NCBI GenBank assembly: GCA_947589085.1
Contig: CANPZD010000004.1
Coordinates: 1-64,000 of the forward strand
Reading direction: 5' to 3'
From: an uncultured Clostridia bacterium
Lineage (GTDB): Bacteria; Bacillota; Clostridia; Christensenellales; Borkfalkiaceae
DNA length: 64,000 nt
The translations under genes and the position numbers were made by a program. Positions 3,466-62,047 of this stretch are shown here, one piece after another. Numbering within the stretch: the first letter of the stretch is position 1; the number at the start of each line of letters is the position of its first letter. The notes under the pieces were generated by a model. That model was not told where the DNA came from. It was given only the letters and a program-made list of their open reading frames with translations, and searched no databases.

Positions 3466-4830
3466 TCAGCCGATAAAGAACGAATCCACCGGCCGACGGA
3501 TCTCCGACGTACTCTTCTTCCGGCTCAGAGCATACGCCAACGTGAATACCCCCGCTCTGCCCGCATACATGAGCAGCATGAGCACGACTTTGGAGACGAC
3601 CGAAAGCGTATTTGTAAACGAGACCGTAAGTCCCACGGTGCCCAGCGCCGATACCGTTTCGAAGAGCGCTTTCCCAAACAGGCCGAGCGAATCGCCCCCG
3701 TCCGGCTCGACGGCGCAGATGACCAGCGTTCCCATCAGAATGAGAATGAGATACGCCGCAAAAATGGCAAGCGCGCGGCTCAACAGCTTGATATCGATCC
3801 TGCGCCTGCCGACGTTGATATCCCGCGAGCCGCGGAACGCCGCAAGCATACCCATGACGATCACGGTGAACGTTCCCACCTTGATGCCGCCCGCGGTCGA
3901 CCCCGAACTGCCCCCGATGAACATGAGGATCACGGTGAGCAGATATCCGCTTCCGGAAAACGAAGCGGGATCCGTCGTGTAAAATCCGGCCGTTCTCGCC
4001 GTGGTCGCATTGAAGAAAGAGGCAAGCAATCTCTGCCCGAAATTATACCCCGCATACGAGGGATTGTTCCGTTCGAAGAGCAGAAAGAGCAAGGTGGAAA
4101 CCGTAAGCAACAAGCTGTTTACGATGAGGATAACTTTCGTATAGAATTGAAACTTCTTCGGATTGCAGCGGCAATCCAACACGTCTCCCCAGATGCAGAA
4201 ACCAAGTCCTCCCACGATGATGAGAACGCAGATCGTGAGCGAAACGAGCGGATCCGTCGCAAAATAGGACAGAGAACCGACCCCCGCCGCCTCCGTGCCG
4301 CCGAAGAGATCGAATCCCGCATTGCAGAAGGCGGAAACGGCATGGAACACCGCATACCACATGCCCCGCGCGCCGAATTTCGGAACGAACCGGATGCAAA
4401 GGATCCCCGCGCCGAGACCTTCGAACGCGGCCGTCCCCACAAAGATGTGCCGCACGAGACGTTTCACGCTCCCCATCTGGCCGCCGACCGACTGCACGAC
4501 GGCATTCCTTTCGTACTGCCCCAGATTGCGCTTGACGGCAAGCAGGACCACGGAGATGAACGTCATAAAGCCAAGTCCGCCGCACTGGATGAGCAGCAGG
4601 ATGACGACCTGTCCGAACGTCGTCCAATGCACCCCCGTTTCGAACGGAACCAGCCCCGTGACGCATGCCGCGGAAAACGACGTGAACAGCGCGTCCACAT
4701 AGAGCGTTTCTCCCGTGCGCGAGGCGACGGGCAATACGAGAAAAACGCTGCCGATGATCACAACGACAAGATACCCCAGCGCGAGGTACATCCACACGTT
4801 CATTCTGTTTTTGATCTTCGGAAATTTCAT
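3466..4830 (-). CDS. ktrB: KtrB/TrkH-type potassium uptake channel
   Basis: Membrane K+ translocation subunit of 454 residues, partner of the downstream RCK protein. It is hydrophobic throughout, with four pore-loop repeats. The selectivity-filter glycines are recognisable in ACVTGLV, FCNAGFDLFG, TARTAGF and SALGTVGLT. The ATG at 4830 has no Shine-Dalgarno sequence; a GGAGG upstream lies inside the promoter spacer and would not be transcribed. A second Met (residue 10) also lacks a ribosome site. The predicted transcript starts only about 7 nt before the ATG. Confidence 0.94.
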   Translation of the reverse strand: MKFPKIKNRMNVWMYLALGYLVVVIIGSVFLVLPVASRTGETLYVDALFTSFSAACVTGLVPFETGVHWTTFGQVVILLLIQCGGLGFMTFISVVLLAVKRNLGQYERNAVVQSVGGQMGSVKRLVRHIFVGTAAFEGLGAGILCIRFVPKFGARGMWYAVFHAVSAFCNAGFDLFGGTEAAGVGSLSYFATDPLVSLTICVLIIVGGLGFCIWGDVLDCRCNPKKFQFYTKVILIVNSLLLTVSTLLFLLFERNNPSYAGYNFGQRLLASFFNATTARTAGFYTTDPASFSGSGYLLTVILMFIGGSSGSTAGGIKVGTFTVIVMGMLAAFRGSRDINVGRRRIDIKLLSRALAIFAAYLILILMGTLVICAVEPDGGDSLGLFGKALFETVSALGTVGLTVSFTNTLSVVSKVVLMLLMYAGRAGVFTLAYALSRKKSTSEIRRPVDSFFIG

Positions 4831-4843
4831 ACGTTACGCGCGA

Positions 4844-4872
4844 ATTGTATCACGTCCTCCGCGCTTTGTCAA
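4844..4872 (-). promoter_or_regulatory. sigma-A promoter of ktrBA, nearly leaderless
   Basis: -35 TTGACA (4867-4872), 17-bp spacer, -10 TACAAT (4844-4849). Thirteen bases separate the -10 from the ktrB ATG, so the predicted 5' leader is about 6-7 nt. It sits in the 55-bp gap after the helicase gene, where no terminator is visible. Confidence 0.75.
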
Positions 4873-13139: not shown

Positions 13140-13633
13140 AGCACCGCAACCTCTTCGAATCTCCGTTTGTTCACCGTGATCCGCCCCGCGGCCGCATCGA
13201 CGTTTACGACCACGCCGCTTGCGGCGGGAAAGAGGATCTCCTTCTTCCCCGTATCCAGCACATAGATATCCGTCGCGGCCTGCGTGATATCCTTGAGCGT
13301 TCCCAAAAGAACGCCCTCTTCCGTGACGATCTCGCTGCCGAGAAGATCCGCGATATAATAGCTCCCTTCTGGAAGCGCGGGCGCTTCCTCGCGGGGGATC
13401 GTGACCTGCTTCCCGCGCAAGAGTTCCGCGGCGTTGCGGTCCGCAACGCCGCGCAATCCGAGATACACGAATCCGTCTGCGCTGCGGAACGAGAGCACTC
13501 TGTACTCCGCGCCGTCCAGAAAAACGCGCTTGAACGCGGCAAACGTCTCCGCGCCGTCCGTGAACGGCTTGATCTTGATCTCTCCGCGGATCCCCTGCGG
13601 TTTGAGCACGACGCCGACCGTGAGATCGCTCAT
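13136..13633 (-). CDS. rimM: 16S rRNA processing protein RimM
   Basis: Assists maturation of the 30S head domain and binds ribosomal protein S19. The 165-residue protein has the two expected parts: an N-terminal beta-barrel starting VGVVLKPQGIRGEIKI, and a C-terminal PRC-barrel-like half with LPEGSYYIADLLGSEI and EILFPAASGVV. It overlaps tmk upstream and trmD downstream by 4 nt each (ATGA), so translation is probably coupled. A GGAGG ribosome site lies within the tmk 3' end. Confidence 0.95.
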   Translation of the reverse strand: MSDLTVGVVLKPQGIRGEIKIKPFTDGAETFAAFKRVFLDGAEYRVLSFRSADGFVYLGLRGVADRNAAELLRGKQVTIPREEAPALPEGSYYIADLLGSEIVTEEGVLLGTLKDITQAATDIYVLDTGKKEILFPAASGVVVNVDAAAGRITVNKRRFEEVAVL

Positions 13634-14262
13634 AATGTTCCTCCGAATAGCTCGTCCGCAAGGCGGCGAAGCCGTTCCTGCGTCTCCTCCTTGCTCTGAC
13701 GGCTCTTCACGACTGCGATGTTTTCGTTATCCCCGAACTGTTTGAATACTTCGAAATATTTTTCACGAATGCGTTTCTGCTGTTCCAGCGTCTCGTACCG
13801 TTCTTTTTCGCTGCGCCGTCCGACGCGCCGCATGCCCTCCTCGGGGTCTACGTCGAGGTAGATCGTGAGGTCTGCGCGCAACAGCTCCATTGCGGGGCGG
13901 TTGAGTTCCGTCACCCATTCGAGGGGGACAAATCCGCCGTTGTAGGCAAACGAGGAAAAGTAATACCGATCGCACAGCACCGTGAAACCCGCGTCCAGCT
14001 TGGCGCGGATCCCGTTGACGGAATTCTGAATGTGATCCATGCGGTCGGCCGCAAAGAGCAGGGCGATCGTGCGTTCGTCCGCGTCGATCCGTCCGTTCAT
14101 GCAGGCGCGCAGGATGGCGCCGAAGGGAGAGTCCGTCGGCTCGTGCGTCACATAGCAAGGAATGTTTTTTTCCTTGAAATACTTTGCAAGGAGACGAAGC
14201 TGCGTAGATTTTCCGCTGCCGTCCGTTCCCTCGAATACAATGAATTTTCCTCTGCTGTTCAT
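13630..14262 (-). CDS. tmk: Thymidylate kinase
   Basis: Phosphorylates dTMP to dTDP with ATP. The 210-residue protein has the P-loop FEGTDGSGKST (10-20), the DRYYFSS segment (98-104), the dTMP-contacting HEPTDSPFG (40-48) and the lid RRSEKERYE. The ATG at 14262 has no ribosome site and lies only nine bases after a perfect -10 box, so the mRNA is probably leaderless. A longer in-frame extension upstream crosses that promoter and is rejected. tmk heads the operon tmk-rimM-trmD-rbgA-rnhB-yraN. Confidence 0.96.
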   Translation of the reverse strand: MNSRGKFIVFEGTDGSGKSTQLRLLAKYFKEKNIPCYVTHEPTDSPFGAILRACMNGRIDADERTIALLFAADRMDHIQNSVNGIRAKLDAGFTVLCDRYYFSSFAYNGGFVPLEWVTELNRPAMELLRADLTIYLDVDPEEGMRRVGRRSEKERYETLEQQKRIREKYFEVFKQFGDNENIAVVKSRQSKEETQERLRRLADELFGGTL

Positions 14263-14271
14263 AACGTTCCC

Positions 14272-14300
14272 ATTATACCAAAACCCCGCGCGTTTGTCAA
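14272..14300 (-). promoter_or_regulatory. Consensus sigma-A promoter of tmk, leaderless layout
   Basis: Perfect -35 TTGACA (14295-14300), 17-bp spacer, perfect -10 TATAAT (14272-14277). Only nine bases (GGGAACGTT) separate the -10 from the tmk ATG, so the predicted leader is 2-3 nt. Confidence 0.85.
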
Positions 14301-28349: not shown

Positions 28350-28395
28350 CGAAAAATACAAAATGGCAGGATTTTTCTATGCGAAAAAACCTGCC
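28350..28395 (-). promoter_or_regulatory. Hairpin followed by T-rich tract in purE leader
   Basis: On the minus strand GGCAGG pairs with CCTGCC (28390-28395 with 28365-28370), extended by T/A pairs, and is followed by ATTTTGTATTTTT ending about 12 bp before the start codon. Upstream, CTCTGC/GCAGAG forms another hairpin at 28423-28439. The layout could attenuate pur transcription. No guanine-riboswitch core is recognisable. Confidence 0.45.
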
Positions 28396-28466
28396 GTTTT
28401 CAAGCGAGCGATAAATTTTTTCCTCTGCATTCCGCAGAGTTTTCTGCTTGCCCTGTTCATGGCAAT

Positions 28467-28495
28467 ATTATATTACATGCCGTGAATTTCGTCAA
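28467..28495 (-). promoter_or_regulatory. sigma-A promoter of the pur operon
   Basis: -35 TTGACG (28490-28495), 17-bp spacer, perfect -10 TATAAT (28467-28472) on the minus strand. The transcript would start near 28460, giving a leader of about 120 nt before purE. Confidence 0.85.
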
Positions 28496-39074: not shown

Positions 39075-39767
39075 TCACGCGATTTCCACGAGAGAAAATT
39101 TCGTTTTGTCGCAGGACGTGAGAAAGTATTCGATCCCGTCTTTTTCGCAGCGCAAAGGAAAATATCCGCTGCCGTGCAAGTGCCCGAAGATGACCTTTTG
39201 CACCTTGTTCGCCTCAAACAGCTCCGTAAAGAGCGTATCTTCCTTCTTGATGTTGAAAGGCGGATAATGAATGAGAACGAGAAGCGTATCCCCGTCTCTT
39301 CGCACCTTTTCCACCTCTTTGAACGCAAGTTTGAACCGTTCCGCCTCGCGCAGGTACAGCTTTACGTCGCGGTCGGTGAAATCCGCGCTGCCCGGGCAGG
39401 TCCACCCGCGGGATCCGGCGATCACGTAATCGCCCAGCCTGAGACAGTCGTTCTGCAAAAAGTAGCAGTGCGGCGGCGCGTTTTCGCGGATCCGCGTGAT
39501 GCCGCTCCACCAGAAATCGTGATTGCCGCGGACGAATACTTTTTCGCCGGGAAGTTCTTCGAGCGAGCGGACGTCGTACATTCCCTCCTCGAACTTCATG
39601 CCCCACGAAATGTCGCCGCCGATGAGCACGATGTCCCCTTCCCGCACTCTTTCCGACCAATCGCGTTTGATTTTTTCGAAATGCCCTTCCCAGCCCGATC
39701 CGAACACGTCCATCGGCTTATCCGAAAGACCGGAAAGATGCAAATCGCTGATCGCAAACACTTTCAT
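39075..39767 (-). CDS. Calcineurin-like metallophosphoesterase
   Basis: Cytosolic hydrolase of 230 residues with the full two-metal phosphoesterase motif set: SDLHL (Asp8, His10), GGDISWG, GNHDFWW, HYPPFN and GHLHGSG. The real substrate is unknown. The ATG at 39767 has no ribosome site and lies nine bases after a TATACT -10 box, so the mRNA is probably leaderless. It stands alone between the mgtE terminator and the pyr promoter. Confidence 0.9.
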   Translation of the reverse strand: MKVFAISDLHLSGLSDKPMDVFGSGWEGHFEKIKRDWSERVREGDIVLIGGDISWGMKFEEGMYDVRSLEELPGEKVFVRGNHDFWWSGITRIRENAPPHCYFLQNDCLRLGDYVIAGSRGWTCPGSADFTDRDVKLYLREAERFKLAFKEVEKVRRDGDTLLVLIHYPPFNIKKEDTLFTELFEANKVQKVIFGHLHGSGYFPLRCEKDGIEYFLTSCDKTKFSLVEIA

Positions 39768-39776
39768 AACAAACCG

Positions 39777-39805
39777 AGTATATCATACCGTGCAAAAAAA
39801 ATCAA
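39777..39805 (-). promoter_or_regulatory. Promoter of the phosphoesterase gene, leaderless layout
   Basis: -35 TTGATT (39800-39805), 17-bp spacer, -10 TATACT (39777-39782). The -10 is followed by nine bases (CGGTTTGTT) and then the ATG, predicting a 2-3 nt leader. Confidence 0.7.
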
Positions 39806-49167: not shown

Positions 49168-49196
49168 TTGATTTTTTCCGAATCAGCCTGTATAAT
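49168..49196 (+). promoter_or_regulatory. sigma-A promoter of the EF-G-like gene
   Basis: -35 TTGATT (49168-49173), 17-bp spacer, -10 TATAAT (49191-49196). The leader of about 50 nt contains AAGGGG before the ATG at 49254. Confidence 0.82.
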
Positions 49197-49253
49197 GAGA
49201 GCATGCGGGTCGCCGGAGCGTCTGCGCAAACAACTTAGTAAGGGGTACCATTT

Positions 49254-51296
49254 ATGGATCTTTCTGCAAAAAATATTCGCAATCTTGCGGTCGTAGGCCA
49301 CAGTGGCGAAGGGAAAACCACGCTCTGCGAGGCCATGCTCTTCAATGCCGGCGTCATCGAACGCATGGGCAAAATCGAAAACGGCACCACGGTGTGCGAT
49401 TTCGACGAACAGGAAATCGCGCGCAGATCTTCCGTTTCTCTCGCCGTTGCGTACCTCAACTGGAAGGACGTGAAACTTAACCTCATCGACGTCCCCGGTT
49501 TTTATGATTTCGAAGGTGAATTCAATTCCGCAATGCGGGCGGCGGGTTCTGCGCTCGTCGTGACGGGCGCAAACGGGATCGTCACGGTCGGCGCCGAAAA
49601 GGCGATCAATCTCTGCCTCAAAGCGAAAAAACCTCTCGTCGTGTTCATCAACGGAATGGATAAAGAGAACGCCGATTATTACGGCACCGTCCACGCGCTG
49701 CAAGAGCAGTATAAGGGAAAGATCGCGCCCATTCAGATCCCCATTATGGAAGGGAACAAGATGACCGGCATCGTGAACGCGCTCACGGGCAAGGCTTATA
49801 AATTTACAAACGTCGGCCCCGAGGAGATCCCCGTGCCGGAGATCTATCGGCGCGACCTCGAAGAAATGCAGTCCTCGCTCATGGAGACCGCCGCCGAAAA
49901 CGACGAAGTGCTGCTCGACAAATATTTCGAGGACGGCTTCCTCTCCCGCGAAGATACCATTCACGGGATCCGCAAGGGCATCTTCAACATCAACGTCATT
50001 CCCGTCATGGCCGGCAGCGCGCTGCAAAACAAGGGCGTGATCAATCTTCTCAATGAGATCGTCAACTATATGCCCCAGGCGGCGGAGCGCGCGGGGATCC
50101 CCGCCACCGATCTGAAAAAAGACGTCGTGACGGGCATCGCGTGCGAAGAGAACGGCCCGCTTGCGGCGCAAGTATTCAAGACCGCCGTCGATCCTTTCGT
50201 GGGAAAAATGAACTACCTCAGGGTCTGCCGCGGGACGCTCAGAACGGGCGCCGACGTGTTGAATCCCAACACGAACACCACGGAGCGCATCAACGCGCTC
50301 TATCTGGTACGCGGAAAGAAACTCGAGCCGGTCTCTGCGCTCGGCGCGGGCGACATCGGCGCGGTATCAAAACTCGCGAACACCGGCACGGGAGATACGC
50401 TCTGCGACGCGAATACCCCCGTGCGCTTCGATCCCATCCCCTTCCCCAAAGGCGTGCTCTCCATGGCGGTTTCGGCCACCGTGCGCGGCACGGAAGATAA
50501 AGTGTTCGGAGGGCTGAACCGTCTTGCGGAAGAGGACAAATCGTTCCAGATCGTCAAGAATCCCGATACGGGCGAAACGCTCGCTTGCGGACAGGGTGAA
50601 GTTCACCTCGAGATCATCAAGAAAAAACTCAAAGCAAAATTCGGTGTGGACGCCGATTTTAAAACTCCCTCCGTCGCCTATAAAGAGACGATCCGCTCCA
50701 CTTCGACCGCGGAGGGCAAGTACAAAAAACAGACCGGCGGACACGGCCAATACGGACACGTGAAAATGCGCTTCGAACCTTGCGAAAAGGATTTTGAATT
50801 TTCCGAGGAAGTCGTGGGCGGAACCGTGCCGAAGAACTATATCCCCGCAGTCGAAAAAGGGATCGTCGAATGCCTGCCCCACGGCATGCTTGCGGACTAC
50901 CCCGTCATTCGCATGAAGGCGGTTCTGTTCGACGGAAGCTCCCACCCCGTGGATTCTTCGGAGGCCGCGTTCAAAGCCGCCGCCGAGCTGGCCTTCAAGG
51001 AGGGCATGAAAAACGCCAATCCCGTGCTGCTCGAACCCATTTCCCGGCTCAAGATCGCCGTTCCCGAACAATATGTGGGAGATATTATGGGCGACCTCAA
51101 CAAGCGCCGCGGCAGGATCATCGGCATGGACGCACAGGATGACATGCAGGTGATCACCGCGGAAGCGCCGCAGGGCGAGATCCTCACGTACGCGACGTCG
51201 CTCCGCTCCATGACGCAGGGACGGGGAAAATTCTCGGAATCCTTTGCGCGCTACGAGCAGGCCCCCGACATCGTATTGCAGACCTTGAAAAAATAA
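49254..51296 (+). CDS. Elongation factor G-like GTPase (EF-G paralogue)
   Basis: A 680-residue translational GTPase with the EF-G domain order. The G motifs are diverged: G1 is GHSGEGKT (15-22) instead of AHIDAGKT, G3 is DVPGFYDF (79-86) instead of DTPGHVDF, and G4 is NGMD (133-136) instead of NKMD. The later domains keep GQGEVHLEI, TGGHGQYGHV and RRGRIIGM. This matches the EF-G-2 type paralogues of Firmicutes and others, whose role is not settled; the canonical fusA is usually beside rpsL/rpsG. A strong promoter and terminator make it a single-gene unit. Confidence 0.9.
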   Translation: MDLSAKNIRNLAVVGHSGEGKTTLCEAMLFNAGVIERMGKIENGTTVCDFDEQEIARRSSVSLAVAYLNWKDVKLNLIDVPGFYDFEGEFNSAMRAAGSALVVTGANGIVTVGAEKAINLCLKAKKPLVVFINGMDKENADYYGTVHALQEQYKGKIAPIQIPIMEGNKMTGIVNALTGKAYKFTNVGPEEIPVPEIYRRDLEEMQSSLMETAAENDEVLLDKYFEDGFLSREDTIHGIRKGIFNINVIPVMAGSALQNKGVINLLNEIVNYMPQAAERAGIPATDLKKDVVTGIACEENGPLAAQVFKTAVDPFVGKMNYLRVCRGTLRTGADVLNPNTNTTERINALYLVRGKKLEPVSALGAGDIGAVSKLANTGTGDTLCDANTPVRFDPIPFPKGVLSMAVSATVRGTEDKVFGGLNRLAEEDKSFQIVKNPDTGETLACGQGEVHLEIIKKKLKAKFGVDADFKTPSVAYKETIRSTSTAEGKYKKQTGGHGQYGHVKMRFEPCEKDFEFSEEVVGGTVPKNYIPAVEKGIVECLPHGMLADYPVIRMKAVLFDGSSHPVDSSEAAFKAAAELAFKEGMKNANPVLLEPISRLKIAVPEQYVGDIMGDLNKRRGRIIGMDAQDDMQVITAEAPQGEILTYATSLRSMTQGRGKFSESFARYEQAPDIVLQTLKK

Positions 51297-59179: not shown

Positions 59180-59904
59180 CAGCTCCAGGAGATCCCTTCA
59201 TCGTTCTTGACGACGTTCCGGATCAGATTTTCCCCGTCATAGAACATGATGCTCACGGCGCCCTCGCCGTCGCTGTGGGCAAGCGGCACATTCGTGCGCA
59301 CTTTGTCCCCTTCGGCAAGATAGACGTCGTCGATCCCGCTGATGATCGTCGTAAAGGAATCCGAATGGCGCAGGCGAATGGAATAGCCGTCCGTTGCGTT
59401 CCCGTAAACGGATTCCAGCGTCCCTTCCACGGGGGCGTAAACGGTGCACTCGGCCGTGAAGCTCATAACGCCCGTCTCGGAAACGGTGACTTCGGCGTCT
59501 ACATATTCATTGACCACGGGCGAAAGTTTGAAATCGGAATAGACGCGGGCGTCCGCCGTCTGCGCATTCCCCTGGAAAAGCCCGCGCACAAAGGTGTTGA
59601 TCGCGCTGTTCGGAATAAACAGATTGGTCAAAAAGATCGTCGCGCAAAGAGCAATGACCGCGACAAGCTCGACGAGCAGAACTTTCCTTGCGGGACTGCG
59701 GCGGTTGACGGTCTGCATTTCGCGCTCGATCGGCTTGCTTTCTGCATAGGCGGGATCGCTTGCTTCCATCCGGTCGTTGACCTCTTTCACAAGCTGATCG
59801 GAGAGCGGCTCCTCTCTCCACTTTTTCTTTTTTTCCTTTTTGCTGACGGTCACCGTTTCAACGGGAATTTCCAGCATTTCGGCATAACTGATCTCATCAT
59901 TCAT
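59179..59904 (-). CDS. spoIVFA: SpoIVFA-like M23-domain membrane protein
   Basis: A 241-residue single-pass membrane protein: charged N-terminus, transmembrane segment at about 75-95, then an extracytoplasmic LytM/M23-like domain (~150-235, with TDGYSIRLRHSD and AEGDKVRTNVPLA). The classical zinc ligands are not evident, so it is probably a non-catalytic scaffold. SpoIVFA anchors and restrains SpoIVFB, and the one-base overlap with that gene supports the name. AAGAGGTG precedes the ATG at 59904; a much longer frame upstream is antisense to the desulfurase gene and is rejected. A sigma-E-like promoter lies upstream. Confidence 0.8.
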   Translation of the reverse strand: MNDEISYAEMLEIPVETVTVSKKEKKKKWREEPLSDQLVKEVNDRMEASDPAYAESKPIEREMQTVNRRSPARKVLLVELVAVIALCATIFLTNLFIPNSAINTFVRGLFQGNAQTADARVYSDFKLSPVVNEYVDAEVTVSETGVMSFTAECTVYAPVEGTLESVYGNATDGYSIRLRHSDSFTTIISGIDDVYLAEGDKVRTNVPLAHSDGEGAVSIMFYDGENLIRNVVKNDEGISWS

Positions 59905-59957
59905 ATAACACCTCTTGAAATTGTGATTGCGGGGCGTCTTTTCCGCCGAGCTATAAC

Positions 59958-59986
59958 AATGTATGCAAAAAGATTTGCGAATAGAA
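59958..59986 (-). promoter_or_regulatory. sigma-E-like sporulation promoter of spoIVFAB
   Basis: On the minus strand TTCTATT (59980-59986), 14-bp spacer, CATACATT (59958-59965). The -10 matches the sigma-E consensus CATACANT exactly and the -35 matches KMATATT at 5 of 7. SpoIVF genes are sigma-E targets in Bacillus, so the match is meaningful. Confidence 0.7.
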
Positions 59987-60127
59987 GAAAAAAAAGCTGT
60001 CGAATGCACGCGAGACCGCAAGATTTTCATACAATAACGGCGAAACTTTTTCGCTCCGCCGCGCGCCGCACGGAAACTTTGGAAGAAAACTACAAAGTCC
60101 TCCCGGCGGAAGAGGACTCTTTTCGCA

Positions 60128-60156
60128 TTGACATTTGCCTGGAAAGCCGCTATAAT
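60128..60156 (+). promoter_or_regulatory. Consensus sigma-A promoter of the desulfurase gene, leaderless
   Basis: Perfect TTGACA (60128-60133), 17-bp spacer, perfect TATAAT (60151-60156). Six bases (GAAGCT) separate the -10 from the ATG at 60163, so the expected transcription start is the A of the start codon. Confidence 0.88.
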
Positions 60157-60162
60157 GAAGCT

Positions 60163-61257
60163 ATGAACGTCTATCTCGACCACGCGGCGGCAACGCCGCT
60201 GCTTCCCGAAGTATTCGAGGAAATGAAACCGCTTCTCTGCAGGGAGTTCGGCAACCCGGACTCTCTCCACGCATACGGAAGAAGAGCGGCCGCATATATC
60301 ACGGACGCGCGCGACCGCGTCGCGCGCACACTCGGCGTTGCGCCCGGCGAAGTCTACTTCACCTCGGGCGGAACGGAGGCGGATAATTGGGCGGTGCGCT
60401 GCCTCGGCGCGGGCGACCTCGTTCTCTCCCCCATCGAGCATGCCGCCGTTCTCTCCTCCGCGCCTCTGCGCGGCGGGAACGTATTTATATGCCCCGTCGG
60501 GGAGGACGGCGTCGTGACGAAGGCGCATTTGGGGCGTACCATGCCCGAGCATGCGGGCATGGTGGCCGTGATGTCCGTCAATAACGAAACGGGGGTCGTG
60601 CAACCCGTCGAAGAGCTTGCAAGGGCGGCCCATGCCTGCGGAGCGCTGTTCTTTTCCGACTGCGTGCAGGCGGCATGCAGCCGGGATCTGAAACAAATAA
60701 CCCGCGTCTGTGACGCGATCTCCCTCTCCTCGCACAAGCTGGGCGGTCCCAAGGGCGCGGGCGCGCTCATCGTAAAAAAGGGAGTCCCGCTCAAACCTCT
60801 GATCGCGGGCGGAGAACAGGAACGCGGCCTGCGCGGTGGAACGGTGAACGTTGCGGCCGGCGTCGGATTTGCGTGCGCGCTGGAACTCGCCCAGCAGCGG
60901 CGCGAAGCGTTCTGCCGGCATACGGGCGCGCTGCGCGATCTGTTTGAAGAGATCGTTCTCTCCGCGCTCGGCGGCGCGGTGCGGGTCGACGGAGAGGATC
61001 GTGCGCCGAATATTTCGCATCTGACTTTCGAGGGCGGCGGCGCGGCGCTTCTGTCCCTTCTCGATCTCAAAGGCGTGGCGTGCTCGGCCGGCGCGGCATG
61101 CTCGGCCCACGCCTCTCTTCCCTCGCACGTGCTGCGGGCCATGGGCAGAACGGAAGAACAGGCCGCTATGGGATTGAGGTTTTCGTTCGGACCGAATACC
61201 ACGGAACAAGAGACCGTGTATGCGGCAAACGTTGTAGTCGATTGTCTGCGCCGATAA
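60163..61257 (+). CDS. Cysteine desulfurase (NifS/IscS family)
   Basis: PLP enzyme of 364 residues that takes sulfur from cysteine for Fe-S clusters or tRNA thiolation. Motifs: YLDHAAATP at the N-terminus, TSGGTEADN (68-76), PLP-stacking His93, the PLP lysine Lys192 in SSHKLGGPKG, and the sulfur-accepting Cys313 in SAGAACSAHASLPS. It could supply MnmA. There is no ribosome site; the start codon coincides with the predicted transcription start. A long in-frame extension upstream crosses the promoter and has no homology. No IscU or NifU gene is next to it. Confidence 0.95.
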   Translation: MNVYLDHAAATPLLPEVFEEMKPLLCREFGNPDSLHAYGRRAAAYITDARDRVARTLGVAPGEVYFTSGGTEADNWAVRCLGAGDLVLSPIEHAAVLSSAPLRGGNVFICPVGEDGVVTKAHLGRTMPEHAGMVAVMSVNNETGVVQPVEELARAAHACGALFFSDCVQAACSRDLKQITRVCDAISLSSHKLGGPKGAGALIVKKGVPLKPLIAGGEQERGLRGGTVNVAAGVGFACALELAQQRREAFCRHTGALRDLFEEIVLSALGGAVRVDGEDRAPNISHLTFEGGGAALLSLLDLKGVACSAGAACSAHASLPSHVLRAMGRTEEQAAMGLRFSFGPNTTEQETVYAANVVVDCLRR

Positions 61258-61264
61258 AAACAGC

Positions 61265-61299
61265 AAAAAAAACCGGGGAATGTTTCCCCGGGATTTTTT
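61265..61299. terminator. Bidirectional terminator, desulfurase / kinase genes
   Basis: CCGGGGAA / TTCCCCGG (61273-61280 with 61284-61291, loop TGT), flanked by A and T runs, between the convergent genes. Confidence 0.87.
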
Positions 61300-61306
61300 T
61301 ATGCGC

Positions 61307-62047
61307 TTATTGCCAATCGCACACGTTGACCCATTTTGCCAAAAACTCCTGCTCCTCCGGTTTTTTCTTGACCGACTGCGACGCCGCAACGATGGGAAGA
61401 ATGCGCTGCACATACTGGATCGCGGTGTCCGTTTTGAGACAGAAAAGTTTGAGATATTTTTCGGCGAGTTCGTCTTTGCCGTTCAGTTTGAAGATGAGAT
61501 AGGTGCGCGCCGCGTCGGCGGAACCGTTGCCCTGTGTGGCGTGCGACCAATCGATGATATAGGGCGTGCCGTCCTTCGTCAGGATCACGTTGCTGGGCTG
61601 GTAATCCCCGTGGCACAGCTTCTTGTGGCGGGGAAGTCCGTCGAGCCGTACGTGCAGGTCGTAACGCACGGTCGCGGGGAAAGCGCTCGCCGAAATTTTG
61701 GCGTGCATCTTATCGCGCAGGTGCCCGAGAAGCGGCACTTTTTCCTTGCTCATGCGGATCTGCAGATCCACAAAAAAATCGAGATATTCATCCGTTTTTT
61801 CGGGATGCTTCTGCATGAGTTCTTCCAGCGTTTCCCCCTCGATGTATTCCCACACGAGCGACCATTTCCCGTCGATGACCGAAACGCCCAGAACTTTGGG
61901 AATATTTAGAGACGTCTCCTCCACGCGCGCCTGATTGAGCGCCTCGTTGAGGATATCCGCCTTCGAATAGCGGGCGTCGAACGATTTTACAAGGCGGTTG
62001 CCGTCGCGGAAAAGCTGCTTGCCCGCGCTTGTATGAATGAGTTCCAT
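61307..62047 (-). CDS. Aminoglycoside phosphotransferase-fold kinase
   Basis: A 246-residue protein of the APH/choline-kinase superfamily. Key motifs are the catalytic loop CHGDYQPSNV (His146, Asp148, Asn153) and the metal-binding IIDWSHA (Asp166). The N-lobe is short, with a Lys in NRLVKSFD. The substrate is unknown; similar Firmicutes proteins act on sugars, choline or fructosamines rather than antibiotics, so a resistance role should not be assumed. AAGGAGGG precedes the ATG at 62047. Confidence 0.82.
   Translation of the reverse strand: MELIHTSAGKQLFRDGNRLVKSFDARYSKADILNEALNQARVEETSLNIPKVLGVSVIDGKWSLVWEYIEGETLEELMQKHPEKTDEYLDFFVDLQIRMSKEKVPLLGHLRDKMHAKISASAFPATVRYDLHVRLDGLPRHKKLCHGDYQPSNVILTKDGTPYIIDWSHATQGNGSADAARTYLIFKLNGKDELAEKYLKLFCLKTDTAIQYVQRILPIVAASQSVKKKPEEQEFLAKWVNVCDWQ

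Follow-up and report, generated by a model that had tools for sequence, protein, structure and literature searches.

A conserved set of predicted leaderless and near-leaderless genes, including a cysteine desulfurase-like gene, in a lineage of gut Clostridia

Results

A consensus promoter lies 6 nt before the start codon of a desulfurase-like gene

The DNA examined in this study, hereafter called the window, is a stretch of 64,000 nucleotides from an uncultured Clostridia bacterium (assembly GCA_947589085.1, contig CANPZD010000004.1, positions 1 to 64,000) that is assigned to Christensenellales and Borkfalkiaceae in GTDB. A gene for a cysteine desulfurase-like protein follows an intergenic region of ~220 nt, and the locus is composed of the following features.

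60128-60133, + strand: desulfurase promoter, -35 element TTGACA (consensus scan, relatives)
60151-60156, + strand: -10 element TATAAT of the same promoter, 17 nt 3' of the -35 element (consensus scan, relatives)
60157-60162, + strand: 6-nt discriminator GAAGCT (length conserved, sequence diverged)
60163-60165, + strand: desulfurase ATG, with its A as the predicted +1 (from the 7-nt spacing and the purine preference)
60163-61257, + strand: cysteine desulfurase-like protein, Aminotran_5, 364 amino acids (Pfam)
61273-61291, + strand: intrinsic terminator directly 3' of the desulfurase gene (fold z-score -3.72)

The encoded protein starts with MNVYLDHAAATP and matches the Pfam family Aminotran_5 with an E-value of 2.7e-54, as a cysteine desulfurase of the NifS/IscS-like type would. 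It includes a CSAGAACSA segment, a candidate site for the catalytic cysteine of the predicted desulfurase activity. Because the N-terminus aligns throughout a collection of 80 related loci (L001-L080), beginning with the first residues, the desulfurase start codon is well supported. The transcription unit is probably monocistronic, given that a terminator is located directly 3' of the gene.

A preliminary description of this region reported the arrangement TTGACA-17-TATAAT-GAAGCT-ATG at 60128-60165 and the lack of a ribosome-binding site, and both are present as described. The -35 and -10 elements together match the consensus at 12 of 12 positions, and no GGAGG-like or other Shine-Dalgarno site is seen directly 5' of the ATG at 60163. 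Among the leadered promoters of the same genome, 47 of 55 carry a purine 7 nt past the -10 element, and this is therefore the expected position of the +1 nucleotide. With a gap (the distance from the -10 element to the ATG) of 6, the desulfurase promoter places its predicted +1 at the start codon or within a few nucleotides of it. Furthermore, the pattern TTGACN{17,19}TATAATN{5,9}ATG is matched three times in the window, at tmk (14260-14300, - strand), at an ATG 5' of a purE-like gene (28458-28495, - strand) and at the desulfurase gene (60128-60165, + strand), versus no matches in 100 shuffles. An Rfam search of the window returned 0 matches.

Transcription might instead begin at a promoter farther upstream that escaped the scans, such that the TTGACA/TATAAT pair is accidental or of minor use. 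The length of the intergenic region leaves space for such a promoter, and consensus scans miss sites for other sigma factors. However, a scan of 59850-61400 yielded only two promoter-like sites (shuffle mean 0.4), the second of which is a 9/12 match within the desulfurase gene, and no further site was found upstream of the ATG in 59850-60163. A leader from such a promoter would also have no Shine-Dalgarno site to use, and the promoter geometry is fixed in relatives as described below, which makes this possibility very unlikely.

Promoter placement is conserved in related desulfurase genes

The closest desulfurases are encoded by uncultured Clostridia MAGs (up to 76% identity, the nearest labelled 'Lapin'), and more distant examples are found in Candidatus Gallimonas (62-64% identity), listed under Clostridia incertae sedis in the NCBI taxonomy, and in Borkfalkia (49% identity). 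Upstream regions were compared for the 80 loci noted above, of which 44 are close relatives. A promoter whose gap is precisely 6 precedes 21 of these 44 genes, at protein identities of 60-76%, and the discriminator 6-mers and spacer sequences of these 21 have diverged. The nucleotide at position -1 is a C or T in all 21 (22/22 when the window is included). For the other 23 close relatives, no promoter was found within 60 nt of the desulfurase gene, and in several of these the gene seems, by reading, to lie close behind another gene. Four additional loci with gaps of 6-9 occur among L045-L080.

A clade of 14 desulfurase genes is leadered: 11 have a promoter at a gap of 23-25, L060 has one at 15, and L065 and L067 have gaps of 28-29 (read from sequence). 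Purine-rich sites are mostly present 5' of the ATG in this clade. On a tree of 81 desulfurase sequences, 26 were scored as leaderless, 16 as leadered and 39 as having no promoter, with L046 and L048 placed in the last group though each has a promoter right at the limit of the 60 nt searched. The leaderless state requires 9 changes on this tree versus a shuffled mean of 22.1, which indicates that the states are clustered. Thus, as judged from promoter placement, one desulfurase gene exists in both predicted leaderless and leadered forms, and such pairs offer natural material for testing why either mode is used.

These comparisons also bear on two alternative readings. The AT-rich TATAAT could serve as a ribosome-binding element of a non-Shine-Dalgarno type rather than as a -10 box, as its position, 7-12 nt 5' of the ATG, is one from which an element of this type could work. 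However, a TTGACA-like hexamer is kept 17-18 nt upstream of TATAAT, and the leadered promoters of the same genome share both hexamers but differ in how far these lie from the ATG, so that this function is exceedingly improbable. Alternatively, the true desulfurase start could be located farther downstream behind a Shine-Dalgarno site, and several relatives indeed have an in-frame ATG at a gap of 63-66 with a possible site. We give this alternative almost no credence, because such a start would remove the YLD(H/Y/N)AA-like motif from the N-termini of the aligned relatives, and no such alternative is listed for the window gene.

ruvC and tmk carry promoters at similarly short distances

The preliminary description proposed that the desulfurase gene is not an isolated case, and orthologues of two other genes support this proposal. 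One of these, tmk, resides in the window.

14260-14300, - strand: tmk promoter and ATG, TTGACA-17-TATAAT-9-ATG (pattern search, genus loci)
13630-14262, - strand: thymidylate kinase gene (tmk), predicted leader of 0 to ~3 nt (Pfam, genus loci)

Matches to ruvC were found in 57 of 61 genus genomes and matches to tmk in 58 of 61, with 30 loci listed for each, including those of the window's own genome. Among the ruvC loci listed, the gap is 6 in 28, 7 in one and 9 in one. All 30 have at most one mismatch in the -35 element, at most one in the -10 element and a spacer of 17 or 18, and the -1 nucleotide is a pyrimidine in 29. For tmk, 26 of the 30 loci listed have a gap of 6-10, mostly 9, and the remaining four include one leadered gene (gap 27) and three without a promoter. 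Because the nucleotide 7 nt past the -10 element is usually a purine, the tmk leader is likely to be 2-3 nt in length.

Genes recurring at a gap of 6 or 7 in different relatives include rsmA-, TcdA- and ispE-like genes, names that we presume from their N-termini (L004, L013, L014, L018, L020, L024, L025, L027, L033, L036, L039 and L044). The ispE-like genes have a gap of 7 and a purine before the ATG. Candidates in the window's own genome with Pfam assignments are genes for a radical-SAM protein, a nucleotidyltransferase/HD protein, an acyl-ACP thioesterase, EPSP synthase and RuvC.

Some of these genes favor a variant in which the main transcription start lies 1-3 nt away from the A of the ATG, producing mRNAs that carry a leader of 1-3 nt or that lack the A, and that would be functionally similar. 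A purine 7 nt past the -10 element would give tmk, with its usual gap of 9, a 3-nt leader, and the purine at -1 of the ispE-like genes is likewise compatible with a displaced start. In contrast, the desulfurase and ruvC genes almost always combine a gap of 6 with a pyrimidine at -1 (22/22 and 29/30), which points to the A itself. We therefore view a displaced start as unlikely for the desulfurase gene.

Short promoter-to-ATG gaps are overrepresented

Gap distributions were established with promoters defined as TTGACA/TATAAT pairs with at most two mismatches. Promoters were dropped if no called gene starting with ATG was present within 150 nt or if the start was a duplicate, and the gene caller started from the own-genome model for two of the sets. 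In 464 kb of the window's own genome, 71 promoters were retained. The gap to the first ATG is 5-9 for 10 of these, one of which (L098) is doubtful given a Shine-Dalgarno start downstream in the same gene. Gaps of 10-14 occur once, 15-19 twice, 20-29 six times and 30-39 sixteen times.

One genome of another family in the order (f32, 398 kb) has gaps of 5-9 for 17 of 75 promoters and gaps of 10-14 for six, whereas a genome of family f4 (400 kb), serving as a negative control from the same order, has gaps of 5-9 for 0 of 41. Fisher tests on the uncorrected counts against f4 give p-values of 0.013 for the own genome and 0.00052 for f32. In the 'far' set taken alone, 12 of 133 promoters have a gap of 5-9, and the difference from the negative control is not significant (p = 0.071). 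Among the non-desulfurase genes of the near set with gaps of 5-9, three of 19 (L003, L021 and L030) are doubtful due to Shine-Dalgarno starts downstream.

When five sets were pooled and desulfurase, tmk and ruvC genes were omitted, a gap of 6 was observed 31 times and each gap from 10 through 19 only 0-5 times. The distribution peaks at 6, is thin at 10-19 and rises again past 20. The -1 nucleotide is a pyrimidine for 30 of the 31 pooled gap-6 starts, which include recurring orthologues and hence are not all independent, compared with fractions of 0.67-0.74 for Shine-Dalgarno starts. With tmk and ruvC removed, 58 further genus loci yielded gaps of 5-9 for 0 of 12 promoters, and histograms of unanchored gaps have a weak peak only.

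The thin zone at gaps of 10-19 fits two modes of initiation, in which the predicted leader is either absent or at most ~3 nt, or is long enough for a Shine-Dalgarno site. Such sites were searched only 3' of the -10 element, so that a very short gap left little chance of scoring one. The 16S rRNA sequence, with its anti-Shine-Dalgarno segment, was not found in the window's own MAG.

Pattern counts differ among families of the order

The strict pattern used for the window was also counted across genomes and compared with the same pattern carrying a gap of 11-15. This shifted-gap control was chosen because a reversed-pattern control is confounded by promoter density. Sums for families were added by hand and cover four of the 33 families in the order draw (f1, f4, f16 and f32). 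The counts for gaps of 5-9 versus 11-15 are as follows.

Window's own genome (1.38 Mb): 22 versus 4
Ten genus genomes, own genome included: 189 versus 74
Thirteen other genomes of the own family: 144 versus 83
Family f32, 21 genomes: 511 versus 204
Family f16, 20 genomes: 200 versus 117
Family f4, 22 genomes: 145 versus 204
Other genomes of the phylum, 28 chosen before the control was seen: 249 versus 183
Genomes of the phylum, 12 chosen for high counts: 180 versus 104

By reading of the table, the own genome has the highest density of the pattern per Mb among 398 genomes. The preliminary description anticipated a genome-wide excess at distances of 6-13 bp, and an excess is indeed present at 6-9 but does not extend beyond. 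A loose pattern, TANNNTN6ATG, exhibits no excess genome-wide (298 versus 309 in a reversed control). Some of the 12 high-count phylum genomes may also use leaderless initiation. Four genomes of one genus of the phylum (G381, G416, G525 and G661), picked for high counts, together have 72 matches versus 32, and this genus may be another leaderless user.

Discussion

A probable conserved leaderless set alongside Shine-Dalgarno genes

Conservation of the gap in relatives, the gap distribution and the negative control from within the order all support the claim, made in the preliminary description, that the desulfurase mRNA is leaderless. We consider it very probable that this is the case, and that the gene belongs to a conserved group of genes that are leaderless or nearly so and that exist beside many Shine-Dalgarno genes. 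A housekeeping sigma-70-type RNA polymerase would transcribe the gene from its perfect consensus promoter, starting at the A of the ATG, to yield an mRNA without a 5' untranslated region. Translation would then proceed by a leaderless route wherein the ribosome binds the 5'-terminal AUG. In other bacteria this occurs mostly with the 70S ribosome. A review describes the binding of 70S ribosomes to a 5'-terminal AUG in such mRNAs (PMC9031893), and by analogy the same binding step may apply to the desulfurase mRNA. The set, with leaders of 0-3 nt, would extend beyond this genus to one or more further families in the order.

A broader interpretation, which we hold to be likely, is that families of gut Clostridia in this order use two discrete modes, one for a vertically inherited set of leaderless housekeeping genes and one for genes with longer Shine-Dalgarno leaders. 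Leaders of ~4-13 nt would be avoided, and an individual gene would switch modes by a shift of its promoter relative to the ATG. The fixed set is proposed to comprise the desulfurase, ruvC and tmk genes and, in relatives, the rsmA-, ispE- and TcdA-like genes, each with a +1 at the A of the AUG or within ~3 nt of it.

Relation to known leaderless genes

Leaderless genes are already known, including in Firmicutes, and the new aspects here are the lineage and the gene-specific conservation. In the portion available to us, the survey by Zheng et al. (2011; PMC3160421) assigns the TA-led genes of Firmicutes to Lactobacillales and Mycoplasma. The genes described here resemble these TA-led genes: a -10-like hexamer lies ~10 bp 5' of the start codon, a Shine-Dalgarno site is absent, and one genome contains both these and Shine-Dalgarno genes. 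In contrast with our Clostridia examples, the word stem 'clostridi' is absent from the main text of that survey. In Streptococcus pneumoniae D39, 70 of 768 operons (9%) begin exactly on the first coding base, and translation of one leaderless gene was shown by a reporter (PMC6212727, in part). This organism is likewise a Firmicute, but it is a member of the Bacilli with mapped 5' ends, whereas the present Clostridia starts are predicted from sequence alone.

Leaderless mRNAs also exist in solventogenic clostridia, which are of the same class. The accessible parts of two reports give ~2-3% of transcripts (PMC9045289) and, by another method, 212 transcripts in C. acetobutylicum, some of which change under stress and are possibly trimmed (PMC4533764). 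Unlike these, the predicted cases in our genomes constitute 10/71 and 17/75 of recognizable promoters, a different denominator, and are set by promoter spacing and conserved. Consequently, the view in the preliminary description that leaderless mRNAs are rare in Firmicutes needs qualifying, given the pneumococcal operons, the Lactobacillales and Mycoplasma users and the clostridial transcripts.

In Mycobacterium and Deinococcus, a substantial share of the mRNAs is leaderless while Shine-Dalgarno genes are also present, as mentioned in PMC9031893 and PMC9581028, and PMC3160421 describes a degenerate TAnnnT -10 element in these high-GC groups. The lineage studied here instead keeps the full TTGACA/TATAAT consensus at 55-58% GC. 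Our search of the open-access literature found no report of leaderless genes in this lineage, which is also unmentioned in the accessible portions of PMC5397173 and PMC10783764. The leaderless arrangement is reported as uncommon in Clostridia, which are usually treated as Shine-Dalgarno organisms, and a conserved leaderless set in a Clostridia lineage would matter for the annotation of gene starts in gut MAGs.

Other candidate genes in the window

The preliminary description counted five of about fifty genes in the window as sharing the leaderless design. The desulfurase gene and tmk are strong cases and the phosphoesterase gene is a moderate one, but the ktrB and Ca2+-ATPase genes do not withstand closer inspection. 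The relevant features are listed below.

39765-39805, - strand: phosphoesterase promoter TTGATT-17-TATACT-9-ATG (read from sequence)
39075-39767, - strand: calcineurin-like phosphoesterase gene (Pfam)
4828-4872, - strand: ktrB promoter TTGACA-17-TACAAT-13-ATG (leader of ~6 nt)
3466-4830, - strand: TrkH-family (ktrB) gene (Pfam)

The phosphoesterase promoter is present but weaker than originally claimed, since its three mismatches in total put it below the cut-off used for the promoter counts. A gene at L181 whose N-terminus is similar to that of the phosphoesterase has a gap of 6. We downgraded ktrB as a leaderless gene on the basis of its gap of 13, its short leader and the variability of the gap among relatives: in 27 loci, the first ATG is 7-8 nt from the -10 element in three and 11-13 nt in three, and the remainder have it at 19 nt or more or have no good promoter. 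The Ca2+-ATPase gene (32850, - strand) was rejected, as it has only a TACGTT hexamer 6 nt upstream of the start codon, with no visible -35 element.

Two small open reading frames in the window also begin near gap-6 promoters. One such promoter opens a 27-codon ORF (28377-28472, - strand) upstream of the purE-like gene (28339, - strand), which could be either a small leaderless ORF or a chance ATG. Another opens an 11-codon ORF at 49203-49238 (site 49168-49238, + strand), just 5' of a gene at 49254-51296 that has an EF-G-like N-terminus by reading, and this ORF may encode a leaderless leader peptide.
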